From the NCBI GenBank assembly GCA_019637295.1, contig JAHBVX010000004.1:558001-622000 (forward strand): 64,000 nucleotides of DNA, in the 5' to 3' direction. Position 1 is the first letter of the stretch; each line of letters begins with the position of its first letter. Origin of the DNA: Polyangiaceae bacterium (GTDB lineage: Bacteria > Myxococcota_A > Polyangia > Polyangiales > Polyangiaceae). The translations under genes were made by a program, and so were the position numbers. Below the pieces are notes generated by a model. That model saw only the letters and a program-made list of their open reading frames with translations, made no database searches and was not told the DNA's origin. Shown piece after piece: positions 41,755 through 49,171 of this stretch.

Positions 41755-44700
41755 TCACGGGAAGGGCGGGCCCTGTATCTTGCCGTCAGCGGAGAGCAGC
41801 GGGGTGGCCTGCTGACCCCGCGCCGCGACGTTGGAGGCTTGGGTGAGCAGATCTGGGTTGACGGCGATGTGGCTCTCCAGACCGTTCACCGATCCATGGC
41901 AACCGCCGCACAAGCCGTTGAATAGCTCCTTCTTGAACGACTGGCGCACCCACTCCCCCGGGTAGAACTGCATCTCCTCGCGCTGGAAGTGCAGCTGCGG
42001 CTTGGCCTCCCCCGCGAGACGCACGGACGTGGCGAGCACCATGGGCATTCCGCCGGGGATCTGGATCTTGAACGAGCTGTCCCCGGCGGGCTGAGCCGAG
42101 CCCCGGAGACGGCGCCGGGCATAGACCTGCCCGAACGCGTCATCCGTCACGAAGCTACCGCCCTGCGCGAAGGTCGTCACGCCGGACTCGGGAGGCAGAC
42201 TCTCCCACACCTCGACCGGGAAGTTCGCTCCCGGCAGCGAACGACCCGTGCGCGTGTTCTGGAACAGCAGGCTCGAGAGGATCTGCATGTCCACCACCGT
42301 GATCTCGCTCTTGTCCCGGCGCGCGTCGTCCGTGTAGATCGTCGTTGCTCCGTTGGCCTCGTCCAAACGAGAGCGGAACACGCCATGGTTCTGGCGGGCG
42401 TACACGGCGACGGGCCAGATGAGGTCGCTGCTGCCGTGGGCCAACAGCGGGGTGCGCTGACCGGTGATGGAATCGACGACGACGAGCTCGAACTTGCCGT
42501 TGATCGACGAGAGGTCCACGACGTTGGGCGCGTAGCTGACAAGCAGCTTTCCGTTGGGCAACGACGCGGGGTTCTTGTAGGCGCCCTGGGTCCCCGACAG
42601 CTTGCCGGTGGCCTGCCCGTCGAGGATGCGCACGGAGCGCTGGTAGAAGGCTGGGTTCGGGTAGCCGATCGCGTCCGGATCTTGGATGTAGTCCGCGGGG
42701 TCATCGCTCAGCTGATCGACGCCGATGCTGCGGTTGATGATGGCCAGCGTGCCCGCGCCGTGCGCCGCGCCCCGCTCACTCAAGATAGCGGCCAGGTTCT
42801 TGTCGGTGAGCTCGACGACGTCGGTGAACTGGTTGTGACCGATGGTGGAGCGCTGGCCGAACAGCGGGTGATAGTCGCCGCCGTCGAGGTTCTGCCGGCG
42901 CCCCGCGAGCTGGTAGAAGCCGGGCGCTCGCTTCTCGGTGACGAAGATCAGCCGGCCGTCGTTCATGAACCCCGGCAAGAACTCCTGGTTGAGCAAGTAC
43001 GTCAGCTGGCGGATCTTGCCGCCTTCGGCCACGTACAGGTTGCTGTTCAGCTTCGAGGGATCCGCGGGCGTGCGCTGCGGGCCTTTGTACTGGAACGCGG
43101 CGGCGTTGGTGACGTTGCCCCGAGTGGAGGCGAAGACGAGGCGACCATCGGGGGCGAAGGCCGGATCGAAGTTGTGGATCAGCTCACCGTTGCTCGGGAT
43201 GGCGGCGCCGGTGTCGTCCACCGGAGCGGCATCAATCGTGGGCTCGACGGCGCAGTTGGCGCCGTCGATGACGTAGACGCGAAAGGGCTCGCTCGCGCCA
43301 GTGCGAGCGGCGAACGCGATCTTCTTGCCATCCCACGACACCGCAGGACGACGAACGTCGACGCTCGCCGGCGACAGGCCGCAGCCACCGAGCAAGCTGC
43401 TCGCGGAGCCGGCGCTGACGTCACCCGAGGCATCCAAGCTCGCTGTCGCCAGCATGAGGTCCGCTCCCGGTGAGTACTCGGCGTAGTCCTGCGGCGTGTC
43501 CTTGCCGGGCTTGGGCGGACGTTCCACGTAGACGATTCCGCTGAGGGGATCGGCTCCCGCCATGCGCTCGCCGCGCTCGAGCTCCATCCACGCCGCGATC
43601 ACGCAGTAGGCGTTCTGCTCGTCGAGGGGCCCGGTGGCGGCGGCGGTCGCGTCGCACGCGGACGGGTCCCCTCCACTGGCCAAGAGCGGGCCACCACGGT
43701 GCAGGATGCCGCCGCCGCCCGCCGTGGGCGGCAGGTTCTTGCGCAGCAGCCGGCTGGCGTTCGGGTCCGGCGACTCGAGCGCGATCTGTTCGACGGTGAG
43801 CTGGTAGTTGCGCCGCGTGGCCGGCAGGCCGAAGTGGCCGCCGCTGCCACCCCGCAGCCGATAGTCATGGAACATGGACGCCGAGTGGCAGCCGAGCATC
43901 ATGCAGCCGCGCTTGACGAGCATGGGCTGGACGCGCTTGGCGAAGAACTCGAAGCCCGGTGACGACGGCACGTTCGTAGGGCCACCCTTGGCCTCGGCCC
44001 ACTTGAGGATGGCCTGATAGCCCGGGTCCGACGCGGACTCGAACAGCGCACCACCCTCGTGGTAGGTGCCGCCTTGGGCGGGGGCCAGGACGCGGCGCAC
44101 GATCTCGCTCGCGGGTGCGTCGACCGACACGTAGTCGCTGGCGGCGAAGTAGTTCCAACGTACCTGCTCGGGCGACGCACCACAGGTCAGGTACAGCGAG
44201 TTGGACGCGTTACCGTGGCAGTTGCCGGCGGCGCAGCTCTGGGCCAGGACTGGCGCTACTTGCTGGGAGAACTGCGCGAAGTCGGCGTCAGCCGGGTCGG
44301 CGCTGGCGTCGAAGCTCGGATCGATGCCCAGCACCTGGGAGCAGGCGGTGAGCACGGGATCCGTCTGCTTGGGGGTCGCGTTGTTCTTCGTGCCGCCGTT
44401 GGCGATCCAGCGTTCGATCTGCGTGTACGACACGCTCGTGAAGTCCATGAGCGAGCCGCCCGCGTGCGCGATGTCCGTGGTGACGGTCTGCGCCGTGCTG
44501 TCCCAAGAGGTGAGCCGGATCTCGAAGGGCGGCACGGCCTTGAGCAAGAGGCCAGGGATGCCGTAGGGGCCGTAGTCGACGAGCAGATCGCGCCGCAGCG
44601 AGAGCGCCTCGAAGCTCGAGAGGTTCAAGTTCCCCAGGGCGTTCCCCTTGTCGTCGGCGCTGACATGACACGACGACTGCGAGGGGCTGGTCGCGCAAGA

Positions 44701-44892
44701 AGTGAGCAGGATCGGTCCGATCTTGCGGTCGTAGAACGTGCTCTCGGGCCCGCGTGGCTCGGCGTTGCAGCCCACCGAAGCCAAGCCGAGCAGCGCCGCC
44801 ACCGCGGCTGGCCGGCCCGCAGCGAGACGGCGGCCGCGGGTCGTGTCGCTGCGCGGCGAGCCGGACAGCGGAGGTCTTGAGGAGCGACTCAT
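41755..44892 (-). CDS. HzsA-related multihaem-type lipoprotein (beta-propeller plus cytochrome)
   Basis: 1045 aa from ATG at 44892 (AGGAAACC upstream). Lipobox ASVGC at residue 42. The N-terminal about 450 residues hold Cys-x(n)-Cys-His motifs of unusual spacing: CATSPSQSSCH (about 65-75), CAAGNCHG (about 219) and CMMLGCH (about 329). The centre is a PD40/WD40-like propeller (DVRRPAVSWDGKKIAFAA, FDPAFAPDGRLVFASTRG). A standard CGGCH lies near residue 995. The layout resembles proteins related to hydrazine synthase subunit alpha. Only the last motif is a canonical haem-c site. The substrate is unknown and hydrazine chemistry is not implied. Confidence 0.78.
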   Translation of the reverse strand: MSRSSRPPLSGSPRSDTTRGRRLAAGRPAAVAALLGLASVGCNAEPRGPESTFYDRKIGPILLTSCATSPSQSSCHVSADDKGNALGNLNLSSFEALSLRRDLLVDYGPYGIPGLLLKAVPPFEIRLTSWDSTAQTVTTDIAHAGGSLMDFTSVSYTQIERWIANGGTKNNATPKQTDPVLTACSQVLGIDPSFDASADPADADFAQFSQQVAPVLAQSCAAGNCHGNASNSLYLTCGASPEQVRWNYFAASDYVSVDAPASEIVRRVLAPAQGGTYHEGGALFESASDPGYQAILKWAEAKGGPTNVPSSPGFEFFAKRVQPMLVKRGCMMLGCHSASMFHDYRLRGGSGGHFGLPATRRNYQLTVEQIALESPDPNASRLLRKNLPPTAGGGGILHRGGPLLASGGDPSACDATAAATGPLDEQNAYCVIAAWMELERGERMAGADPLSGIVYVERPPKPGKDTPQDYAEYSPGADLMLATASLDASGDVSAGSASSLLGGCGLSPASVDVRRPAVSWDGKKIAFAARTGASEPFRVYVIDGANCAVEPTIDAAPVDDTGAAIPSNGELIHNFDPAFAPDGRLVFASTRGNVTNAAAFQYKGPQRTPADPSKLNSNLYVAEGGKIRQLTYLLNQEFLPGFMNDGRLIFVTEKRAPGFYQLAGRRQNLDGGDYHPLFGQRSTIGHNQFTDVVELTDKNLAAILSERGAAHGAGTLAIINRSIGVDQLSDDPADYIQDPDAIGYPNPAFYQRSVRILDGQATGKLSGTQGAYKNPASLPNGKLLVSYAPNVVDLSSINGKFELVVVDSITGQRTPLLAHGSSDLIWPVAVYARQNHGVFRSRLDEANGATTIYTDDARRDKSEITVVDMQILSSLLFQNTRTGRSLPGANFPVEVWESLPPESGVTTFAQGGSFVTDDAFGQVYARRRLRGSAQPAGDSSFKIQIPGGMPMVLATSVRLAGEAKPQLHFQREEMQFYPGEWVRQSFKKELFNGLCGGCHGSVNGLESHIAVNPDLLTQASNVAARGQQATPLLSADGKIQGPPFP

Positions 44893-44979
44893 GGTTTCCT
44901 GGATGCTAGCTCCAAAACTGACAGACGTCATGCCCACTTGATCGCACTCACGCGACGTCACTCGTTCTTGGAAACGCAG

Positions 44980-45014
44980 CGAGCCGGCGACCCACTTGCG
45001 TGAGCGCCGGCTCG
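44980..45014 (-). terminator. Strong hairpin separating the HEAT-repeat gene from the first HzsA-like gene
   Basis: Ten-base perfect inverted repeat CGAGCCGGCG / CGCCGGCTCG with a 15-base loop, 19 bases past the HEAT-repeat stop. On the minus strand CTGCGTTTCC follows. It suggests that the upstream pair is one transcript and the gene at 41755-44892 has its own promoter. Confidence 0.6.
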
Positions 45015-45033
45015 GATGCGGTCGCGATGGCTG

Positions 45034-45963
45034 TCAGATCCGGCGCGTCGCGATCTTGGCGGCGTCACGCACGAAGGGATGAGGATCCTTCAGCGCGGCG
45101 TACACCGCGTCCTTGGCCGACGGATCTGCGATCTGACCCAGAGCCCAGACCGCCGCGGCGCGCACGTTGGCGTCGGGCTCTGCCTCGGGGGTGGTGAGGG
45201 CCACGAGCCCGACCACGGCGTCCTTCGCGCGCATGGCGCCGAGCACCTCCGCTGCGCGCTTGCGAACCAGCGGTGAGTCGTCGCTGATGCGGCTCACGAC
45301 CGAGCCCACCGAGGTGAACACGTTGACGCGAATGGCGCCGCGCAGCGCCTCGAGGCGAACGTCCACGTCCGAGTCGCTCAGCGCCTGGCCGAGCTCGCCG
45401 TTCGGTCCTTCGGTGTTGAGCCGATTGAGCGCCCACACCGCGCTGCGGCGCACCCGAGGCGAGGGGTCATCGAGCGCCGCCTGGGCCACGGGTCCGACGC
45501 CGCTGTGGTGCAAGAACTCACCGAGCGCCTCGACCGCGTGGGCGCGCTGGGTCTCCGACGCGGACATGTCCACGGCCGTCTTGCGCGTCTGCTCGTACAC
45601 CTGGCCGGGCCCGAACACGCCGAGGATCCGGCGCCGTAGCCACCACGCCGCGATCTCGCGGGTCTTCTGGTTGTCGGCATAGAGCAGCTTGGACACGACC
45701 GGGATGCAGTTGAGACACTCCACCTTTTCGCCGTGCTCGAGGCGCCGCCAGATTTCCGTCGGCGCGACGTTGCCGGCGCCAACTCCCATGAGCTGGGCCG
45801 TCGAGGTGATGTGCTCGACCGAGGTCTCGTGTTGGTGCTGGACGTGGTTGGCCCGGTAGCGAGCCTTGACTTCCGAGTCGGCCACCACCGTACCGGTGAG
45901 CAGGGTTGCGGCTCCCGCGATCAGGGAAACCAGGGCGGTCTTGCGAAGGCTGATGCGTTTCAT
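45034..45963 (-). CDS. Exported HEAT-repeat protein
   Basis: 309 aa from ATG at 45963 with GGAG upstream (a GTG 12 bases earlier is less likely). Signal peptide with ALVSLIAGAATLLTGTVVA. Residues about 35-90 hold a His-rich stretch (HVQHQHETSVEHIT) and a CLNC pair. From about 95 on there are five to six HEAT/PBS-lyase-type repeats (for example DPSPRVRRSAVWALNRL, SPLVRKRAAEVLGAM, ANVRAAAVWALGQIADPS). It is a periplasmic scaffold or adaptor. It lies 30 bases downstream of the second HzsA-like gene, probably in one operon, and His/Cys residues could contact haem or metal. Confidence 0.85.
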   Translation of the reverse strand: MKRISLRKTALVSLIAGAATLLTGTVVADSEVKARYRANHVQHQHETSVEHITSTAQLMGVGAGNVAPTEIWRRLEHGEKVECLNCIPVVSKLLYADNQKTREIAAWWLRRRILGVFGPGQVYEQTRKTAVDMSASETQRAHAVEALGEFLHHSGVGPVAQAALDDPSPRVRRSAVWALNRLNTEGPNGELGQALSDSDVDVRLEALRGAIRVNVFTSVGSVVSRISDDSPLVRKRAAEVLGAMRAKDAVVGLVALTTPEAEPDANVRAAAVWALGQIADPSAKDAVYAALKDPHPFVRDAAKIATRRI

Positions 45964-45993
45964 GACGTTCTCCACTCCTCTAGTCTTCCACGA

Positions 45994-48330
45994 TCAGTAC
46001 TGGTTACCGGTGCCGCTGCCGTAAGGCGCGAAGGCCGTGTTCTGACGCGCGTAGTACTGTCCACCGAGGTCGATGGCGCGAATCAGGATCATGCGCTCTT
46101 CGCGGGTGAGCGTGGTGCCCACGTTCTCCGGGTGGAGCGCGCGAGTGCCGCCCTTGATGTTGGGATCCGAGAAGGGCTCACCGAGCTTCCACGCGGTGTC
46201 GGCGGCGTTGTAGAGCGAGACGGCGTTGAGCTTCTCGATCAGAGCGCTCTGACGCGCCGAGCTGTTCACGGCCCAGATGGGCGGGATCGTCCCGGTGACC
46301 GTCGCGTCATCCATTTCCATCTCGAGCGCGCCCGGGTAGAAGATGCTGACATAGGAGGCCGGGTACTCGTTGGTCATGTTGTCGTAGGTGACCGTGATGG
46401 GCCGGTTCGACAGGTCCATGCGCGGGATCTGGTAGACCGTGGCCGCGCCGCCGAGGGGGTCGGCCATGCTGACCGTGTAGAACTCCTGCGGGCCGTTGCC
46501 GTTGGTGGACTCGTTGTGACAGCTCACGCACTTGGCATCGAGCAGCGCCTGCACCTCGTTCATCTCGAAGCCCGCGTTGGCCTTGTACCAGGGGTACTCG
46601 GCGCGGGTCGCGATGGGCTGGTTGAAGTTCTGTGGGCCCTTGCCGGCGGCGATCGTGAGCGCCTGACCGCCCGGATCGAACGGCTTGCCGCGGTCTTCGT
46701 GGCAGCCGCCGCACACCCGGTCCTCTCCGGGCATACCCTGGATCCACGTGGTCTGGTTGCGGATCGAGAGTCCGTACTTGTCGATGGGCTGCAGGTGAAC
46801 CGGTACGTAGGGCGGGATGGCAGCGAGCCAGGAGCCGTCCTCGTACACGTCGGCTTCACCCAGCACCGCGGCGCCTTCAGCCATCGTGAGACCGAACATG
46901 GTGACGCCCGGCGCCGCCTCGGACGAGAAGCCCTCGATGATGCGGACCTTGTCAGTCTGGGCGAGCGCGTCATCCATGGAGGTCGCGTCGAACTGCGCTC
47001 CAGATACCCGCTGTCCGTGCACGCTGAACAGCGAGGTGTTGCGCACGTCGACCGAGCCGAAGACTGCCGCGACCGTCGGGTCGACCGTGTCGGTGACAGA
47101 AGCGATGATCGGCGGCTCCGCGCGCTTGACCACCGGGCGGCCGTACAGCTCCCAGCTCCCCTCGTAGTTGGCGACCAGCTGGTTCTCCCGCGTGGACGGG
47201 TTGTACAGATAGAGGCCGAAGTCCGGCGGCGTGAGCGAGAGCTCGTTGAGCTCGTTGACGAAGCCGCTCGCCCAGGACACCAGGATGCGACCGTCCGGCA
47301 GCGAAACCGGGTAGCGGTAGCGGCCGACGGGCGAGGGATCCATGCCGCGCGGGACGCCCGGGGTGAGCACCTCGAACTTGGGGTCCTCCTCGTAGACCCG
47401 CGTCGGGTCCGACGCGGAGCGTGCGTCCATGCGAATCAGCGCGCCCGCCTGGATGGTGTTCTCGCGGCTGGTCGTGATGCCGAGGAACACGTTCTGCGTG
47501 TTGGTCTCGCTGATCTGCACCAGGCTGTTGCCTGGCTTACCGTGCTGCCCGCCGACGGCGACCATCTGGGAGCAGTCGGGGTTCATGGCGAACAGCTTCA
47601 CGTCGTTGATGTTCTCGAGGTGCTCCCAGCGCGAGAAGCCGATGCGACCGTCCTGCATCGCGAACAGGTTGATCGTGTGTGACAGGTTGTGGGAGCAGAG
47701 CTTGCGGTCTGCGTCTCCACCCGTCTCGGTGACCGTGGCGATCTGCGTGACCACGCGGGAGTGGTTGTACTCGTCCGCGCGGGTGCCCATCTCGGTGTAG
47801 GCCTGGTTGGTCACGAAGGCGATCTTCCCGCCGGCGACCCACACCGGGTAGATGTCGTCGTTGGGCCCGAAGGTGAGCTGCCGAATGGGGAACTTGCCGT
47901 CCGCGCCGCGCTTCAGATCGGCGACGTAGATGTGGAAGTCGTCGTTCGAGTCTTTCTTCATCGAGAACACGACCTTGGTCGCGTCGAACGAGAGGTCGAG
48001 GCTCTGCACGTCCGCGGTCGCGAAGCCCTCGATGACGTTCTGCACCTTGCCCGTGACCAGGTCCTTGATCTCGAGCCGGCCGCCGGGCATGTACCGGCCG
48101 TAGTCCATCACCTGGCCCATGCCACCGGCGACGTTGATGTCCACCGAGCCGTCGCTACCGACGACCTGGGTCTGGCGGACGACGTACACGATCTGCTTGA
48201 CGTCCTTGCCCAGCGCGCCGGACTCCTCGTCGGGGGTGCTGGAGCAGCTGGCGGCGAGCGTGCCGATAGCGGCGAGAAACGGGACCGTCAGGGCACCGAG
48301 CAAACGAAGTTTGGGAGAGATTCGAGCCAT
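45994..48330 (-). CDS. HzsA-related dihaem-type lipoprotein (beta-propeller plus cytochrome)
   Basis: 778 aa from ATG at 48330 with GGAGGA six bases upstream. Lipobox LAASC at residue 29. The N-terminal two thirds are a propeller of PD40-like blades (SLDLSFDATKVVFSMKKD, GPNDDIYPVWVAGGKIAFVT, RIGFSRWEHLENI). The C-terminal cytochrome part has two standard haem motifs, RVCGGCHED (about 538) and KCVSCHNES (about 600). The family resemblance is to hydrazine-synthase-alpha-related proteins found outside anammox bacteria. It heads an operon with the HEAT-repeat protein. Its similarity to the protein at 41755-44892 is in domain order rather than close sequence. Confidence 0.82.
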   Translation of the reverse strand: MARISPKLRLLGALTVPFLAAIGTLAASCSSTPDEESGALGKDVKQIVYVVRQTQVVGSDGSVDINVAGGMGQVMDYGRYMPGGRLEIKDLVTGKVQNVIEGFATADVQSLDLSFDATKVVFSMKKDSNDDFHIYVADLKRGADGKFPIRQLTFGPNDDIYPVWVAGGKIAFVTNQAYTEMGTRADEYNHSRVVTQIATVTETGGDADRKLCSHNLSHTINLFAMQDGRIGFSRWEHLENINDVKLFAMNPDCSQMVAVGGQHGKPGNSLVQISETNTQNVFLGITTSRENTIQAGALIRMDARSASDPTRVYEEDPKFEVLTPGVPRGMDPSPVGRYRYPVSLPDGRILVSWASGFVNELNELSLTPPDFGLYLYNPSTRENQLVANYEGSWELYGRPVVKRAEPPIIASVTDTVDPTVAAVFGSVDVRNTSLFSVHGQRVSGAQFDATSMDDALAQTDKVRIIEGFSSEAAPGVTMFGLTMAEGAAVLGEADVYEDGSWLAAIPPYVPVHLQPIDKYGLSIRNQTTWIQGMPGEDRVCGGCHEDRGKPFDPGGQALTIAAGKGPQNFNQPIATRAEYPWYKANAGFEMNEVQALLDAKCVSCHNESTNGNGPQEFYTVSMADPLGGAATVYQIPRMDLSNRPITVTYDNMTNEYPASYVSIFYPGALEMEMDDATVTGTIPPIWAVNSSARQSALIEKLNAVSLYNAADTAWKLGEPFSDPNIKGGTRALHPENVGTTLTREERMILIRAIDLGGQYYARQNTAFAPYGSGTGNQY

Positions 48331-48523: not shown

Positions 48524-49171
48524 ATGCAGCCCGCCTTCGATGACCGAGGTCTGATCGTCGCGATCGCTCAAGACCGCCGCAGCGGCGAGGTGCGGATGGT
48601 GGGGTGGATGACCGCCGAGGCCCTCGCGCGCACCGCGGAGACAGGGCTGGCCACCTTTCACAGTCGCTCGCGGGGACGGCTGTGGGTCAAGGGGGAGAGC
48701 AGCGGCAATCGGCTCAGGGTCCATGAGATCTGGCTCGACTGCGACGCCGACTCGGTCCTGCTGCTCGTGGAGCCCGAGGGCCCCACCTGCCACACGGGTC
48801 GCCCTACCTGCTTCTTTCGCGACTCGAGCGGCGCAGAGACCGGCGAGCACGGCGCACCCGTGCTCGCCGCGCTCGAGCACCGAATCGAGGCGCGAAAGCT
48901 CGACAGCGCCGAGCGGAGCTACACGCGGACTCTACTCGACGGTGGTCCCGCCTTGATCGGGGCAAAACTTCGGGAGGAGGCGGATGAGCTTGCTCGAGCC
49001 ATCGCCCAAGAGTCGGACCAGCGGGTGGCTGAGGAGGCGGCTGATCTTCTCTACCACCTGTGTGTGGCCCTGGCCGGGCGCTCAGTACCCGTGAACGCGG
49101 TGATGTCCGTGCTCGCAGCCCGGGCGAACACGAGCGGGTTGGTGGAGAAGGCCCGGCGGTCCGGCGCCTGA
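48524..49171 (+). CDS. hisIE: Bifunctional phosphoribosyl-AMP cyclohydrolase / phosphoribosyl-ATP pyrophosphatase
   Basis: 215 aa, the usual HisIE length. The HisI part (about 1-110) has FHSRSRGRLWVKGESSGN, WLDCDADSVLLLV and GPTCHTGRPTCFF with the zinc Cys residues. WVKGE replaces the more common WHKGE. The HisE part (about 125-205) has IGAKLREEADELARA and EEAADLLYHLCVAL, the acidic metal-binding helices. It carries out steps 2 and 3 of histidine synthesis. AAGGAGG precedes the ATG. No other his gene is adjacent. Confidence 0.94.
   Translation: MQPAFDDRGLIVAIAQDRRSGEVRMVGWMTAEALARTAETGLATFHSRSRGRLWVKGESSGNRLRVHEIWLDCDADSVLLLVEPEGPTCHTGRPTCFFRDSSGAETGEHGAPVLAALEHRIEARKLDSAERSYTRTLLDGGPALIGAKLREEADELARAIAQESDQRVAEEAADLLYHLCVALAGRSVPVNAVMSVLAARANTSGLVEKARRSGA

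Follow-up and report, generated by a model that had tools for sequence, protein, structure and literature searches.

A conserved gene trio of Polyangia encoding two HzsA-related predicted lipoproteins and an exported HEAT-repeat protein

The alpha subunit of hydrazine synthase, HzsA, was formerly thought to be without relatives (see PMC12758564), and the homologues reported in that study accompany betagamma genes. A locus in the window (the whole 64,000-nucleotide stretch of Polyangiaceae DNA that was analyzed) raises the question of what role the HzsA fold plays when it is maintained beside quite different partners, by organisms without sign of anammox. The first-pass annotation had recognized there two HzsA-related propeller lipoproteins with cytochrome motifs around an exported HEAT-repeat protein. 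Along the direction of transcription the order on the minus strand is B (45994-48330), HEAT (45034-45963) and A (41755-44892), at the positions originally given, and a third-position GC content of 0.88-0.91 in the three reading frames provides a strong coding signal. The features of the locus are the following.

45994..48330, minus strand: gene B, predicted HzsA-like diheme lipoprotein of 778 aa (HZS_alpha match, model against 5c2v_A, trio order)
48244..48246, minus strand: lipobox Cys29 of B, invariant in 39/39
47080..48210, minus strand: N-terminal beta-propeller of B, residues ~41-417; the model aligns with the HzsA and TolB propellers
46696..46896, minus strand: HZS_alpha middle domain of B, residues 479-545 (Pfam PF18582; 39/39 orthologues)
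46795..46797, minus strand: His512 of B, a mark of the B family, located 28 residues ahead of the alpha-I motif
46699..46713, minus strand: putative alpha-I haem motif CGGCH of B (540-544), with no Tyr591 equivalent after it; Cys/Cys/His invariant
46516..46530, minus strand: putative alpha-II haem motif CVSCH of B (601-605), invariant in both clades
46132..46134, minus strand: His733 of B, equivalent to the HzsA distal ligand His772 by alignment with HzsA
45034..45963, minus strand: HEAT gene, exported HEAT-repeat protein of 309 aa (HEAT_2; 3' of B in all B loci)
45706..45717, minus strand: C83-L-N-C86 of the HEAT protein, an invariant CxxC (59/59 in two clades)
44980..45014, minus strand: intercistronic hairpin without U-tract in the HEAT/A gap, with 10-bp perfect arms (RNA fold)
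41755..44892, minus strand: gene A, second HzsA-related predicted lipoprotein with extra N-terminal cytochrome-like modules, 1045 aa (model, A-B profile comparison)
44767..44769, minus strand: lipobox Cys42 of A, 52/52
44665..44697, minus strand: module 1 motif of A, C66 to H76 here and CX6-9CH in the family; Cys 52/52, His 51/52
44215..44235, minus strand: module 2 motif CX4CH of A (C220-H226), invariant in 52/52
43885..43905, minus strand: module 3 motif CX4CH of A (C330-H336), invariant in 52/52
43699..44466, minus strand: stretch of A with three HxGG histidines, candidate distal ligands, invariant in 52/52 (H143, 44464-44466; H278, 44059-44061; H398, 43699-43701)
42394..43548, minus strand: beta-propeller of A, residues ~449-833 (PD40; model)
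41896..41910, minus strand: alpha-I-like motif CGGCH of A (995-999), invariant in the 49/49 sequences that reach it and aligned with alpha-I of B

Sequence profiles and predicted models together indicate that B is homologous to HzsA over its full length. The search with an HzsA middle-domain profile that had been proposed at the outset places B in the Pfam family HZS_alpha (PF18582; 53.4 bits, cut-off 26.6), along with every one of its orthologues; B also reaches 22.3 bits against Cytochrom_C (cut-off 21.3) and contains two CXXCH motifs. Among solved structures, HzsA (5c2v) is the sole significant match of a profile of 39 B proteins (E 3.4e-18) and the best match of a profile of 35 A proteins (E 6.9e-9). 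It is likewise the top Foldseek match of the AlphaFold models of both proteins (B: pLDDT 80, pTM 0.81, E 4e-26; A: pLDDT 79.6, pTM 0.82, E 8e-19), leading the structural matches by a wide margin over TolB, which comes second and covers the propeller. Superposition on 5c2v_A by VIA-align gave Z 33.1 and an rmsd of 3.6 over 584 residues for B (model 41-768), and Z 31.5 and an rmsd of 3.4 over 466 residues for A (model 363-1045), so the relationship of both lipoproteins to HzsA that was read from the sequence at the outset is upheld. A tree of 78 sequences places the B proteins in a single, fully supported clade and the A proteins in a separate, long-branched one; the link of B to HzsA and to two planctomycete proteins (L127 and L128) has an SH-aLRT of 83 only. 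In both planctomycete loci the HzsA-like gene has, directly upstream of it, a gene for a two-CXXCH protein, a candidate betagamma. The planctomycete KLAP142 contig (L128 and L144) carries tandem HzsA-like genes, with large proteins nearby that have weak HEAT matches. An HZS_alpha protein of ~740 aa in some relatives that have no trio (L164, 3692-5903; L169, 5566-7777) scores 62-71 bits against the B profile and represents a different subfamily with other neighbours.

Profile comparison and modelling indicate that A is a second, more distant relative of HzsA, in the part that runs from the propeller through the final CXXCH. The homology between A and B covers the propeller and the middle domain through the alpha-I CXXCH (hhalign profile comparison, E 7e-28); in Pfam, PD40 alone exceeds its cut-off in A (37 bits), and HZS_alpha is unmatched by the A of the window and matched weakly, at E <= 1, by 19 of 35 A orthologues. 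The common order of lipobox, propeller and C-terminal cytochrome motifs that the first-pass annotation ascribed to the two proteins holds for the lipobox, the propeller and the alpha-I CXXCH, but the middle domain of A is degenerate, a single C-terminal CXXCH is present, the C-terminal alpha-II haem domain is missing, and three N-terminal modules had been overlooked. Each of these modules consists of a C-Xn-CH motif (n = 6-9, 4 and 4) followed by a HxGG-type histidine, and these residues are almost all invariant among 52 sequences from two clades; modules 2 and 3 are mutually homologous (hhalign E 8e-14), and module 1 is weakly related to both. Searches of Pfam and the PDB with the modules gave no cytochrome match by sequence. 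The motifs suggest that the modules may bind haem, CX6-9CH being no established haem motif. A further family of ~950-1050 aa proteins (L165, L166, L167) shares positions 187-633 of the A profile and has haem motifs of its own.

The protein encoded between B and A belongs to the HEAT-repeat family (HEAT_2, PF13646; 96.2 bits, cut-off 27.7). Two segments had been singled out in it originally, and these fare differently: the CLNC segment is the invariant CxxC, while the histidine-rich stretch is not conserved, with 4 His in the protein of the window and a median of 1 in 39 sequences. Family searches with this protein returned HEAT-repeat families alone, with no thiol oxidoreductase and no haem lyase, and the curated NCBIfam equivalogs score it far under their cut-offs.

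The association of the three genes is maintained over considerable distances. The HEAT gene lies 3' of B in 38/38 loci of relatives that have B, with a B-HEAT gap of -1 to 49 nt, and in 34 of these 38 A comes next, encoded on the strand that carries HEAT; of the other four, two stop at contig ends and two (L059, L060) have A elsewhere in the genome. Among the 84,980 species genomes searched, 56 Myxococcota loci were found, in all of which HEAT follows B and in 46 of which most or all of A lies behind HEAT. Twenty of the 56 make up a second clade that includes Nannocystineae and Kofleriaceae, with a B identity of ~33%, and in which the order B-HEAT-A is found in 17/20 loci, the other three being cut by contig ends; many of the remaining 36 belong to species already represented among the first relatives and were not counted twice. 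The 23 matches outside Myxococcota have neither an A homologue (0) nor a directly adjacent HEAT homologue (0), and two of them show a weak HEAT match within a large protein. Across 146 genomes, B and A occur together in 53 and are both absent from 89, with two genomes having B alone and two A alone, these exceptions being incomplete genomes (Fisher p 9e-35, uncorrected for kinship among the genomes). The survey across Myxococcota that had been suggested as a check thus found the order kept within the class, but B in only 42 of the 379 genomes of a phylum sample, all 42 in the class of the window or closer, and the trio is a trait of one class, Polyangia, and not of Myxococcota as a whole. The genome of the window has a second, solo A paralogue (L150, 8433-11505; G000:C1:193445-196498; 1306 bits) without adjacent B or HEAT, and solo copies are present in several relatives too. 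These paralogues, with the two trio loci in which A sits elsewhere, indicate that A is not strictly tied to B and HEAT.

Outside the trio, a comparison of flanks among relatives found no gene widely common to the loci. The flanking genes are housekeeping genes and vary by lineage (thiolase, HisI/E-like, kinases, MutS); inferring the substrate from the neighbours was therefore rejected, and the original decision to leave the substrate open stands. A HisI/HisE-like gene divergent from B (window 48524-49171) is a conserved neighbour of B in 11 loci from the family of the window. A DsbD-like gene is found upstream near the trio in 9 loci, as would be expected if thiols were reduced there for the attachment of c-type haem. 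The match to the HzsA-related family, the conserved neighbourhood and the propeller fold predicted by the models are the three points on which the first-pass annotation had staked its reading, and all three were found.

The hairpin in the HEAT-A gap had been taken to divide the block into two transcripts. It is present exactly at 44980-45014, the gap has an RNA fold z of -2.4, and similar stems are found where other HEAT-A gaps are long; but a consensus terminator and promoter scan (terminator loops <=8 covered) found nothing at the HEAT-A boundary, so division of the block by a terminator or promoter was rejected. With no U-tract after the hairpin and a HEAT-A gap of 9-60 nt in more than half of the relatives, two transcripts are unsupported, and one operon, perhaps with processing, appears likelier.

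Whether the trio could be a true hydrazine synthase depends largely on the haem ligands, which were compared by aligning B with 12 sequences of genuine HzsA, taken from the genomes of anammox bacteria. The haem Cys and His residues of B and A are nearly all invariant over two clades that are ~33% identical. The bis-His pair of alpha-II is kept in B at the sequence level, His605 corresponding to the CXXCH histidine His689 of HzsA and His733 to His772, the latter position being His in 12/12 HzsA, in 39/39 B of clade 1 and in 18/20 or 20/20 of clade 2, depending on the alignment. At alpha-I, a tyrosine binds the iron in HzsA, according to PMC12607021 and PMC12758564. This Tyr591, four residues past the CXXCH histidine, is found in 12/12 HzsA and in none of the B proteins, in which the column is T/S/A/K. 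The marks specific to the B family are instead His512, Arg547 and His237. Around the zinc-site Cys303 of HzsA the propeller loops do not align reliably with B; some anammox bacteria lack this cysteine, according to PMC12758564. Against the equivalog NF052339 (cut-off 800), B scores 43.9 bits and A 19.2 bits, compared with 1065-1642 bits for true HzsA. A screen for CXXCH in 448 flanking genes of 41 loci found no betagamma-like gene beside the Myxococcota trio: two of these genes have at least two CXXCH, but neither of the two is shared, and one comes from a locus that lacks the trio. No HAO family match was found in the genome of the window. Among relatives, the trio is associated neither with NrfA (14/57 vs 19/89, p 0.69) nor with NosZ (21/57 vs 22/89, p 0.14), and a link to nitrogen respiration was rejected on these grounds. 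The genome of the window does have matches to an NrfA-type nitrite reductase and a NosZ propeller (G000:C11:59235-60503 and G000:C1:437014-437226), far from the trio. That the trio is a hydrazine synthase or another anammox-type enzyme is consequently scarcely credible, in spite of the homology of B to HzsA and its conserved alpha-II ligands, because every B lacks the tyrosine ligand and no betagamma gene adjoins the trio. With a residue needed by the true enzyme missing, the trio is probably an undescribed haem-carrying redox complex of the cell envelope.

The reading preferred here, with about even confidence, is that the trio forms one cell-envelope complex in which two lipid-anchored cytochromes of the HzsA fold, B and A, are joined by a periplasmic HEAT solenoid, and which performs redox chemistry on a small substrate. 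It sets out from the homology and fold of the proteins, their conserved motifs and the missing HzsA tyrosine, and from the order and co-occurrence of the genes. If haem occupies the predicted sites, the alpha-I haem in the middle domain of B (Cys540/Cys543/His544), with His512 and Arg547 near it in sequence, would be the redox or catalytic centre, and the alpha-II bis-His haem (His605/His733) would serve in electron transfer. A might contribute a third haem, of the alpha-I type, and up to three more in its N-terminal modules, giving a complex of up to six haems, and would serve as a wire that passes electrons on to other cytochromes or takes them up from these. The HEAT protein would hold B and A together in the complex, its CxxC acting as a structural or metal site or as a thiol/disulfide switch. 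Any catalysis would consist in the oxidation or reduction of a small substrate, with hydrazine not its product. That the trio is an undescribed, Polyangia-wide periplasmic enzyme of paralogous HzsA-fold cytochromes with a redox-active HEAT protein, catalyzing a new redox reaction of a small molecule and carrying haem at new CX6-9CH sites, is rather unlikely.

The main rival to the redox-enzyme reading is that B and A are electron carriers only, the alpha-I haem of B being bis-His (His544/His512) and the trio serving as a wire that links periplasmic donors to a terminal oxidase or extracellular acceptor. This is a doubtful account: it draws strength from the retained alpha-II pair and from His512 itself, which is present in 39/39 B and in 17/20 of the second clade at a position where HzsA has mostly Cys or Tyr, but 3/20 of the second clade have Arg there, and the large propeller and middle domain exceed the needs of a plain electron carrier. 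It is also conceivable, if improbable, that the complex consists of B and A alone and that the HEAT protein acts in their maturation, in which its CxxC would keep apocytochrome thiols reduced or aid haem loading on the CXnCH sites of A. The invariance of the CxxC, the DsbD-like genes near the trio and the need for dedicated lyases at atypical haem sites elsewhere (PMC6976685) are in keeping with such a role, but the family searches point to HEAT repeats alone, and HEAT stays with B in L059 and L060, where A sits elsewhere in the genome. The second place of TolB among the fold matches of both propellers could be taken to mean that B and A are mainly structural or signalling TolB-like propeller lipoproteins with vestigial cytochrome motifs; this is very improbable, since invariance of the haem Cys and His residues across such distant sequences is not what vestigial sites would show, and the match to HzsA extends far past the propeller.

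The trio makes the role of the HzsA fold outside hydrazine synthesis directly testable, and it shows that "hydrazine synthase alpha" labels derived from PF18582 do not imply anammox. Non-anammox HZS-alpha homologues are already known: Hagglund et al. 2025 (PMC12758564) describe them in Planctomycetota and Desulfobacterota, in clades I-IV. Open-access papers on Myxococcota or HEAT with hydrazine synthase contained no description of a HEAT-linked trio with two alpha-type proteins, which is therefore undescribed within the literature searched. As reported in the passages covered, the homologues of clades I-III resemble B in lacking Tyr591. The homologues of all these clades were selected by co-localized betagamma genes and often occur with CRTAC1/FG-GAP genes, unlike the trio; the histidine equivalent to alpha-His772 is absent from clade I, whereas B keeps it. 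Myxococcota has 0 occurrences in the main text of that study, and the passages covered mention neither a HEAT partner nor an A-type paralogue.

The long Cys-Cys spacing in module 1 of A recalls the atypical c-type sites of SirA/MccA, CX12NKGCH and CX15CH (PMC6976685), but CX6-9CH is shorter, is a predicted haem site, and has no dedicated lyase gene recognized beside A. The HEAT protein shares its repeats with other HEAT_2 proteins (PF13646) and differs from them in its invariant CxxC with a W-W motif after it. The closest comparison remains HzsA itself (PDB 5C2V; NF052339), with which B shares the order of propeller, alpha-I middle domain and C-terminal alpha-II bis-His domain, the CXXCH sites and the His772 equivalent, and from which it differs in having no Tyr591 ligand and no betagamma partner, in being a predicted lipoprotein, and in having the HEAT protein and A as its partners.
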